64,000 nt of DNA from contig NZ_SPQR01000003.1 of NCBI RefSeq assembly GCF_004766055.1, forward strand, positions 186,001 through 250,000, read 5' to 3'. Of this stretch, positions 29,270-31,642 are shown piece after piece (the first letter of the stretch is position 1; each line of letters starts with the position of its first letter). Origin of the DNA: Desulfosporosinus sp. Sb-LF. GTDB taxonomy: Bacteria > Bacillota > Desulfitobacteriia > Desulfitobacteriales > Desulfitobacteriaceae. The notes below the pieces were generated by a model. The model had not been told where the DNA came from. It saw only the letters and a list, made by a program, of their open reading frames with translations, and did no database searches. The position numbers and the translations under genes were made by a program.

Positions 29270-29299
29270 GAGGCCGCCTAACTGATGTTAGGCGACCTC
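29270..29299 (-). terminator. Terminator after the small siroheme reductase gene
   Basis: GAGGCCGCCTAA and TTAGGCGACCTC arms pair with one mismatch around a 6-base loop, about 48 bp past the stop codon. Confidence 0.75.
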
Positions 29300-29346: not shown

Positions 29347-30087
29347 CTACAAACTACTAATTTGACGATTGAATTCTGAGAGTGTAAGACCACAGAGGAA
29401 GCTTCCAACCGTATCAAATCCCATTCTTTCAACCGTTTTGGCAAATCGTTCTTTCGGTGTGCCATTATCTCTATAATAGATAATAGCTTTTTCGACAATA
29501 TCCAGTGCCTCACTTAATGAATAGAGACCTGGCAATACCCTTCCTATCGAGTATTCTTTTCCAGACATTCCCCCAATAAAAATAGCTACTTGGTCTGGTT
29601 TTCTACCCTGTAAGCCAACACATCCGAACCTAGGCTTAGAACAACCATTACCACACCCACTAACTTCGATTCTAAATTTATTAGGGAGTCTTTCATCATA
29701 ATACCCTTTATAAAATCGTGCGTCGATTTCTTTTGTTACATCTTCGGTGTTAAATAAGCTCCTGCTACACACATTCCCTTTACAGGTATGAGCGGGTCTA
29801 ACTCTCAAGCCTGTGCCACCAACAGACAGTCCCACTTCTTTAAGCTCTCTTTTTACATTATCGAGATCTTGATACTGTATCCAGGGAATTTCGACATTTA
29901 ATCTTTGCGTTAGGCTAAAAGAACCCCTGCCATATTTCTCACTAACGTCGGCAATTTTACGCGATTCTTGGGCATTCATTTTACCAGACGGTATGGAAAC
30001 ACGACAGCTAAAGTGCACACCATCCTTCAGTGCAATAAATCCCTGTCCTTGTAAGGATTTCTTCTGTTCATCTGTTAATTCCATCAC
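29347..30087 (-). CDS. Small nitrite/sulfite reductase-like hemoprotein
   Basis: 246 residues, much shorter than full assimilatory reductases (over 500), but near the size of low-molecular-weight sulfite reductases of anaerobes. An N-terminal ferrodoxin-like half (GVHFSCRVSIPSGKMN, RGSFSLTQRLNVEIPW) is followed by the siroheme/4Fe-4S cysteines as HTCKGNVCSRS and then SGCGNGCSKPRFGCVGL. The first pair is spaced CX4C rather than the common CX5C. It probably binds siroheme and one 4Fe-4S cluster and reduces sulfite or nitrite in the cytoplasm. A thiol oxidoreductase gene lies about 120 bp upstream on the same strand. Confidence 0.83.
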   Translation of the reverse strand: MMELTDEQKKSLQGQGFIALKDGVHFSCRVSIPSGKMNAQESRKIADVSEKYGRGSFSLTQRLNVEIPWIQYQDLDNVKRELKEVGLSVGGTGLRVRPAHTCKGNVCSRSLFNTEDVTKEIDARFYKGYYDERLPNKFRIEVSGCGNGCSKPRFGCVGLQGRKPDQVAIFIGGMSGKEYSIGRVLPGLYSLSEALDIVEKAIIYYRDNGTPKERFAKTVERMGFDTVGSFLCGLTLSEFNRQISSL

Positions 30088-30210: not shown

Positions 30211-30837
30211 TTACGCCTCTCCATTATCAGGCTTATCTAATAAATTAATTACAGGGCGAGAATCGTACCCTAGAAGAAGTCTTTCCAGATCTTCATAGCT
30301 CTGAGCCCCAAAGGCTGTTCGACCCTCAACGATAAAATAGGGCACACCTGGAATCCCTATTCGCTGGGCTTCTTCAATATCTTGTAAAACTGCTTCCTCA
30401 TATTTTTTAGATACGAGTGCTTGTCGGAATTCTTCTTTATCAAGTCCGCTCTGTACAGCAAGCTCAGTCAAAACATTTAGATCATTAATGTCTTTATATT
30501 CTTGAAACTGAGCGGCAAAAACGACATTATGATATTTATCGCCAAGCCCTTGTTCCTCCGCGAATTTAGCTCCTTCCAAAGCAAATCTGGAGTGTTTACT
30601 CTTCTCATTAAAGGTCATCTGAAGTCCATACTTCTGACCTAAAGTTTCAATACCCAATTTCGCCTGAGCTAGATATTCCGGAGTTTTCTCAGGAATTTCA
30701 AAACCCTCTGGCCTTAGCTCAAAGGATTTCCATTCTACTGTTAGATTTCTGTCCTTGGCCAACTGGTCAAGTGGGACTTTCCCAATCATGCAAAAGGGTC
30801 ATAGAAAATCTGAAAAGATCGTTATTTTGTTTGCCAA
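30211..30837 (-). CDS. DsbA/FrnE-family thiol oxidoreductase with in-frame TGA at the first active-site Cys (candidate selenoprotein)
   Basis: From a TTG at 30837 (GGAGGG 7 bases upstream) the frame reads MANKITIFSDFL, then TGA (30799-30801, codon 13), then PFCMIGKVPLDQLAK and onward to a normal FrnE-type C-terminus (GIPGVPYFIVEGRTAFGAQS). Family members have CPWC/CPFC here, so the TGA replaces the first, nucleophilic Cys, giving UPFC if read as selenocysteine. Two stem-loops follow it: UGGG-AAAGU-CCCA at 15-27 nt, and CUUGACC-AGUU-GGCCAAG at about 28-45 nt with a loop G. The downstream frame is fully intact (about 192 residues). Alternatives are a nonsense mutation, or initiation at the ATG of codon 17 (30789), which would yield a protein without an active site. 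Confidence 0.78.
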
Positions 30838-30890: not shown

Positions 30891-31520
30891 TTACAATTCT
30901 TTATAGTAAGGAAACTGTTCACCTATCATGGCGGCTATTTCCCAAATATAATCATTACCCATTATTTCTCGTCGGTCCACTCCGAATCCTTTTCTTTTTA
31001 AAAGATTCAACATGTTTTTATCAACTGCATATCCCGACAGGAACTTAGCCCCTTGCTCTCTCGCAAACACAGAGATATTATGAAATACCTTATCGAGAAC
31101 ACCATCACTCAATGAATCGAAATCATCATTTTTAACTAATACGATATCATTGATGAAAACTTCAGTCTTGTTAAGTTTTGATAAATGTACGCTAATGACA
31201 GATTCCTCAAAGCCCAGGGTGTCCACCCACTTGATCTGGGGTAATTGTACTCCCAATAGACTTGTAAGTTCGGGGCTATTCTTATAAGGGTCATAGTATT
31301 CCTGTAATAATTCGACCAGTTCCAGATTATGTGCTCTTGCTTGCACTGAGATATTATAAAGACTTGGATAAGCAAGTCTTATCTCATCATCCCGAAGCAC
31401 CTTAATGCCGGGATCCCTTCCAATTTCTGCGGCAATGTCATCCATTGGTAATAAAAGATCAATCTGTTCCTTTGATGGGTTCCATTGTTCTGCAAAGATT
31501 CGCTGCGGCTTAATTGACAT
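30891..31520 (-). CDS. Uncharacterised protein with GNAT-like C-terminal end
   Basis: 209 residues from the ATG at 31520 (GTGAGG 6-7 bases upstream); the frame can extend to 31589 without a ribosome site. I do not recognise the family. The last about 90 residues (NISVFAREQGAKFLSGYAVD, LLKRKGFGVDRREIM) read like the end of an acetyltransferase fold, without a visible acetyl-CoA loop. It is cytoplasmic, with no membrane segment. It sits just upstream (54 bp) of the thiol oxidoreductase on the same strand, but a shared role cannot be claimed. Confidence 0.6.
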   Translation of the reverse strand: MSIKPQRIFAEQWNPSKEQIDLLLPMDDIAAEIGRDPGIKVLRDDEIRLAYPSLYNISVQARAHNLELVELLQEYYDPYKNSPELTSLLGVQLPQIKWVDTLGFEESVISVHLSKLNKTEVFINDIVLVKNDDFDSLSDGVLDKVFHNISVFAREQGAKFLSGYAVDKNMLNLLKRKGFGVDRREIMGNDYIWEIAAMIGEQFPYYKEL

Positions 31521-31642
31521 TTCTACCTCACACCTTTTCAAATACTTAAATTCTTCGAAAACTAATCTAGGGTTGATTGAGCAACACACAATAATAACGC
31601 CTACAATTATTAAATCCTATTATATCTTTACCCTGCCACAAA

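Follow-up and report, generated by a model that had tools for sequence, protein, structure and literature searches.

Selenocysteine (Sec)-containing DsbA-like proteins of COG2761, which carry a UxxC motif, were reported from the Sargasso Sea selenoproteome in 2005, in a paper that describes a SECIS whose small apical loop contains a guanosine (PMC1088965). A genome survey of 2006 lists a DsbA-like selenoprotein with Desulfotomaculum reducens among its carriers (PMC1794560), a marine survey of 2008 (PMC2398784) and a review of 2026 (PMC13188914) include Sec DsbA-like proteins as well, and the DsbA-like row of a 2016 survey reads 41 and 45, apparently organisms and genes (PMC5029168). Given that such proteins have been in print since 2005, the Sec form of this family is already known. 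In a table of organisms with multiple tRNA-Sec, the entry of D. orientis reads 2 and 13, apparently tRNA-Sec genes and selenoproteins (PMC5330540). Desulfosporosinus is not named in the main text of the 2006 and 2016 surveys, of the 2026 review or of the deep-Sep paper (PMC12013277), and the main text of the last does not name DsbA either. Searching the literature by title, we found no Desulfosporosinus FrnE with Sec, a gene that the supplementary lists of the surveys may include, and among papers combining FrnE with selenoprotein, two concern selenoproteins of algae and animals and none, by title, a bacterial FrnE.

Exploring 64,000 nucleotides of Desulfosporosinus sp. Sb-LF (the window), we found a gene of this family, here termed Sec-FrnE, on the minus strand at 30211..30837. 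It reads from a TTG start (30837-30835) to a TAA stop (30213-30211) through an in-frame TGA at 30801-30799 and encodes 208 residues, LANKITIFSDFL-U-PFCMIGKVPLDQL, in which the TGA, as residue 13, occupies the first active-site position of the motif UPFC. An earlier note, made from the letters of this DNA only, had proposed that a good ribosome site and a TTG start lead into the N-terminus of a DsbA/FrnE-family oxidoreductase, that TGA stands where the first active-site Cys belongs, followed by PFC and a long intact frame, and that a gene caller would annotate the gene short and miss the active site. The points on the sequence were borne out. The Shine-Dalgarno-like GGAGG lies at 30850-30846 on the minus strand, 8 nt ahead of the TTG, at whose place 23 of 26 orthologs have ATG, and 195 codons are open downstream of the TGA. 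The mechanical table-11 list starts the ORF at the ATG at 30789 (30211..30789, minus strand), leaving 192 aa from which the UPFC motif is missing. Like the DsbA-like selenoproteins of COG2761, the gene encodes a DsbA/FrnE-type protein with predicted Sec replacing the first Cys of CxxC and has a SECIS-like hairpin right after the UGA; unlike them, compared by description, it has two near-invariant tandem hairpins and a neighbourhood of its own. It resembles the D. reducens protein, compared by table entry, in being predicted to contain Sec and in coming from a clostridial anaerobe (PMC1794560).

The read-through translation (P0001) matched Pfam DSBA (PF01323) over residues 26-209 with 127.1 bits against a cut-off of 25.6, as expected from the family named in the earlier note. 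In an alignment of 14 sequences, UPFC falls on the invariant CPFC of the family, and V162-P163 is likewise invariant; the conserved Pro in a late loop of the DsbA/FrnE family is the cis-Pro. The nearest sequence of known structure was Deinococcus FrnE (7e-20), followed by the DsbA-like protein SCO1869 of Streptomyces (3.5e-13). An AlphaFold2 model built from the 14 sequences was of modest confidence (mean pLDDT 63, pTM 0.61), and its helix 11-26 begins inside UPFC, residues 10-13 of the modelled sequence. The best fold match of the model was again Deinococcus FrnE (Z 21.0 over 189 residues, 3.1 A, 31% identity), which also accounts for all five best entries (Z 19.9-21.0). Since kappa-class GST, SCO1869 and HCCA isomerase come next, with Z 18.9-19.8 and thus about 1-2 Z units below, fold alone does not separate FrnE from these families, and it is the sequence comparison that favours the FrnE assignment. 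D. radiodurans FrnE (PDB 5cp1, 5cnw, 5xwh) thus is the closest solved relative by both sequence and fold, with Cys-x-x-Cys at the aligned place; unlike Sec-FrnE, it has Cys instead of Sec and a longer chain of 260 residues. No NCBIfam model scored above its cut-off for Sec-FrnE, the best being the Rcas_1661 (seleno)lipoprotein family with 49.8 against 190 bits, and a PHROGs search gave one match, to a family of unknown function. As the ORF list starts past the motif and NCBIfam offers no model above cut-off, annotations across this genus of sulfate reducers are likely to give the gene in a form that lacks the active site.

Orthologs of Sec-FrnE were found in 26 of 29 Desulfosporosinus genomes, with no match in G021, which is listed as 98% complete, G027 and G029. 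All 26 (L018-L043) carry TGA at the active-site codon, far more than chance would give, and none carries TGC or TGT; two named matches, L048 (Desulfosporosinus sp. I2) and L049 (same genus name), also have TGA. Two of the genomes, G015 and G026, carry in addition a distant second TGA-containing FrnE paralog (L046, L047) with a single, different SECIS-like hairpin. Comparing the 26 orthologs codon by codon, we found a mean pN/pS of 0.18 over the 11 codons upstream of the TGA and of 0.20 over codons +18 to +100, indicating that the sequence is constrained at the protein level on either side of the TGA. Codons +6 to +17 had a mean pS of only 0.18, compared with 0.72 ahead of the TGA, 0.65 in codons +1 to +5 and 0.74 further downstream, and pN over the same regions ranged from 0.03 to 0.23. 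The synonymous-diversity ratio, 0.76 overall, dropped in codons +6 to +17 to 0.17, a value reached by none of 5000 column shuffles (lowest shuffle 0.288); upon removal of three near-copies, the remaining 23 rows gave 0.18, again with 0 of 5000 shuffles. This dip indicates constraint on the nucleotides themselves, over and above that of the protein. The orthologs are an unusually clean sequence set for measuring nucleotide constraint after a UGA. If the TGA were instead a true stop, a short leader would be followed by a restart at the ATG at 30789, from which an ORF of 192 aa is indeed open. The product of such a restart would, however, lack UPFC and, in terms of the modelled fold, strand 1 and the beginning of helix 1, and the 11 codons ahead of the TGA not only evolve as protein but match the N-terminus of the family, so that we consider this explanation very unlikely.

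The host genome (99.99% complete, 30 contigs) encodes the machinery for Sec insertion, a check that the earlier note had proposed alongside a search for homologues with Cys or Sec at codon 13. It carries selA (560.5 bits), selB above cut-off, one tRNA-Sec gene (selC) with the anticodon TCA, and selD above cut-off, whose own active site, GUGCK, contains an in-frame TGA. A second match to the tRNA-Sec model scored 48.4 against a gathering score of 47 and was called tRNA-Ser by ARAGORN, leaving a single tRNA-Sec. Across the genus, selB was above cut-off in 27 of 29 genomes and was not found at that level in G026 and G027, which are 85% and 79% complete, respectively; G026 still carries the TGA gene. 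Of 14 named matches, 12 have Cys at the position, those 12 being Flavobacteriales or Bacteroidia by title or genus. Among 398 genomes drawn from the phylum, 52 had a match to Sec-FrnE, and 30 of these, a set with no genus members and few of the partial matches, were used to compare the active-site codon with selB. This selB was above cut-off in all 12 carriers of TGA and in 5 of the 18 carriers of Cys (Fisher p = 8.7e-5, in a test that ignores relatedness).

These data bear on the possibility that near-cognate or reassigned decoding inserts Trp or Cys at the TGA in place of Sec. We regard this as highly improbable given that homologs have Cys at this position, the genome holds selA, selB, tRNA-Sec and selD, and TGA tracks selB across the 30 genomes. 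Furthermore, TGA is an ordinary stop elsewhere in the window, ending 11 of 45 ORFs that were hand-picked from the ORF list as likely genes, and reading through these 11 stops adds 0 to 59 codons. The weakest alternative, a pseudogene or a sequencing error, might be entertained from an in-frame TGA taken alone, and we give it almost no weight in view of the same TGA codon throughout the genus orthologs, purifying selection on both sides and nucleotide constraint after the TGA. We thus rejected pseudogene, sequencing error, re-initiation and a change of the code on the basis of the conserved TGA, the constraint and the normal TGA stops.

Together, the conserved TGA, the sel genes, the nucleotide constraint and the link to selB argue strongly for the Sec reading of the earlier note, which remains a prediction, and for its view that the gene is not dead. 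Very probably, Sec-FrnE is an intact enzyme of the DsbA family, a thiol-disulfide oxidoreductase of the FrnE type, predicted to use Sec for the first active-site Cys, with the UGA decoded via SelB and a downstream RNA element; its location is probably the cytosol. Beyond the earlier note, our analysis shows that the gene is genus-wide, that the split between TGA and Cys follows selB and that DsbA-like selenoproteins have already been published. In the mechanism we propose, an RNA element within the 48 nt that follow the UGA would position SelB, with its Sec-tRNA(UCA), at that codon. The element is most likely the second of two hairpins, whose loop is AGUU, and the first hairpin would serve as a spacer or helper. 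In the finished protein, the selenolate would be the nucleophile acting on disulfides or selenylsulfides, with Cys16 as the resolving residue.

To characterize the stretch following the TGA, we aligned 27 sequences, the 26 genus orthologs and L071, the closest homolog outside the genus in the draw from the phylum. RNAalifold, supplied with no structure, returned GGGA-NNN-UCCC followed by CUUG-A-CC-AGUU-GG-N-CAAG. Stem-loop 1 of the window (GGGA-AAG-UCCC, 30773..30783, minus strand) places a variable loop on four pairs that are invariant in the 27 sequences. Stem-loop 2 (CUUGACC-AGUU-GGCCAAG, 30754..30771, minus strand) has a loop, AGUU, that is itself invariant. The rule for a bacterial SECIS is a G among the first two loop positions. 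As the earlier note had pointed out, only the second of the two stem-loops has such a G, at position 2; both were found to be present and conserved beyond the needs of the protein, and together with the synonymous constraint this makes stem-loop 2 the better candidate for a SECIS.

Among the 25 distinct sequences, pair 32-47 changes from U-A to U-G in four, pair 34-45 is G-U in one and broken in another, and positions 35 and 44 oppose A to C, a mismatch, in 21 and pair as A-U in four; no pair of the tandem hairpins changes on both sides. In a letter-shuffling control, 500 of 500 shuffles scored as high, a control that lends no support because the element hardly varies, and hence the 27-sequence alignment cannot prove the fold by covariation. 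In register, 92.0% of the cells paired, versus at most 59.6% with the partners slid by 1 to 3 columns. Folded singly at minimum energy, the window's own sequence forms another hairpin, longer than these (-15.2 kcal/mol, z -1.73), a stability equalled or exceeded by 12 of 200 shuffles; the lowest-energy fold of L071 is the two hairpins (-15 kcal/mol, z -2.13).

Distant TGA-containing homologs offer independent support for a SECIS at this place. We counted 11 of 13 such homologs; the other two, L072 and L095, appear to fold differently at lowest energy. Common to the 11 is one hairpin that spans columns 17-35 from the TGA and in which the G at column 25 is invariant. In this hairpin 98.7% of the cells are paired and four cells are changed on both sides; its covariation score was reached by 0 of 500 shuffles and its number of pairs changed on both sides by 14 of 500. 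Comparing the single hairpin with the tandem pair of the window, it seems that the window's lineage replaced or extended the former. It is conceivable, although we consider it rather doubtful, that the Desulfosporosinus lineage has a two-part SECIS of adjacent, near-invariant hairpins at columns 19-48 from the UGA in place of the earlier single hairpin of the distant genes. Were this so, the loop read by SelB would have moved downstream, and hairpin 1, or else the long hairpin of the alternative fold, might modulate read-through. The element is an unusually well-conserved candidate SECIS, possibly in two parts.

Outside the genus the distribution of the gene was patchy. In the rest of the class we obtained matches in 4 of 53 genomes, of which L044 and L045 have Cys at the site and the other two stop short of it. 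L071, which belongs to another family and is kin at the phylum level only, is 55% identical to Sec-FrnE and carries TGA and both hairpins. This patchiness suggests transfer or loss. In a quick tree of 56 rows, TGA requires four changes, of which the starred branches force at least three; 17 of the 53 inner branches are open. The tree was built without four genus rows (L027, L030, L039, L041), two TGA rows (L047, L096), the duplicates L048 and L049 and 8 of the 12 Cys-containing named matches. These changes imply either that Sec and Cys were exchanged more than once or that the tree is imprecise, and with this proviso we rejected a single origin of the Sec form. L095 (codon at 1555 on the plus strand in G461) is an active-site TGA homolog, MQIEMWTDFAUPFCYIGKRRL, that lies among Cys-type proteins on the tree; given this position and the selB above cut-off in G461, its TGA may represent a separate gain of Sec. 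Two other homologs were unusual. In L105 / L072 (G118, from 1239, plus strand) the active-site TGA is followed by an in-frame TAG 22 codons on, and the gene is possibly decaying. The TGA-type homolog L096 (G194, minus strand, from 1175) is unusually short and matches only residues 21-66 and 120-209 of the query.

In the window, Sec-FrnE is flanked upstream by an ORF listed with 232 aa (30891..31589, minus strand), which matched neither Pfam nor NCBIfam at E 0.001 and adjoins Sec-FrnE in 25 of the 26 genus loci; in the remaining one, L037, the sequence stops a short way upstream. Downstream lies a nitrite/sulfite reductase-like (NIR_SIR) gene (29347..30087, minus strand), present in 19 of the 26 loci as counted within the available flanking sequence, L043 ending before its position. 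The locus thereby adds a probable Sec-dependent thiol oxidoreductase next to a sulfite-reductase-like gene, and a tie of Sec-FrnE to sulfite chemistry is our guess from this neighbourhood. Past the NIR_SIR gene, a terminator-like hairpin at 29270..29299 (minus strand) is a possible operon end; the region has two such hairpins versus 1.9 expected by chance. The only family returned by Rfam at gathering scores over the window lies away from the gene, a T-box leader (RF00230, 99.3 bits) at 46570-46326 on the minus strand. It is located upstream of the gene at 46205-45198, which looks like an ABC-type substrate-binding protein.
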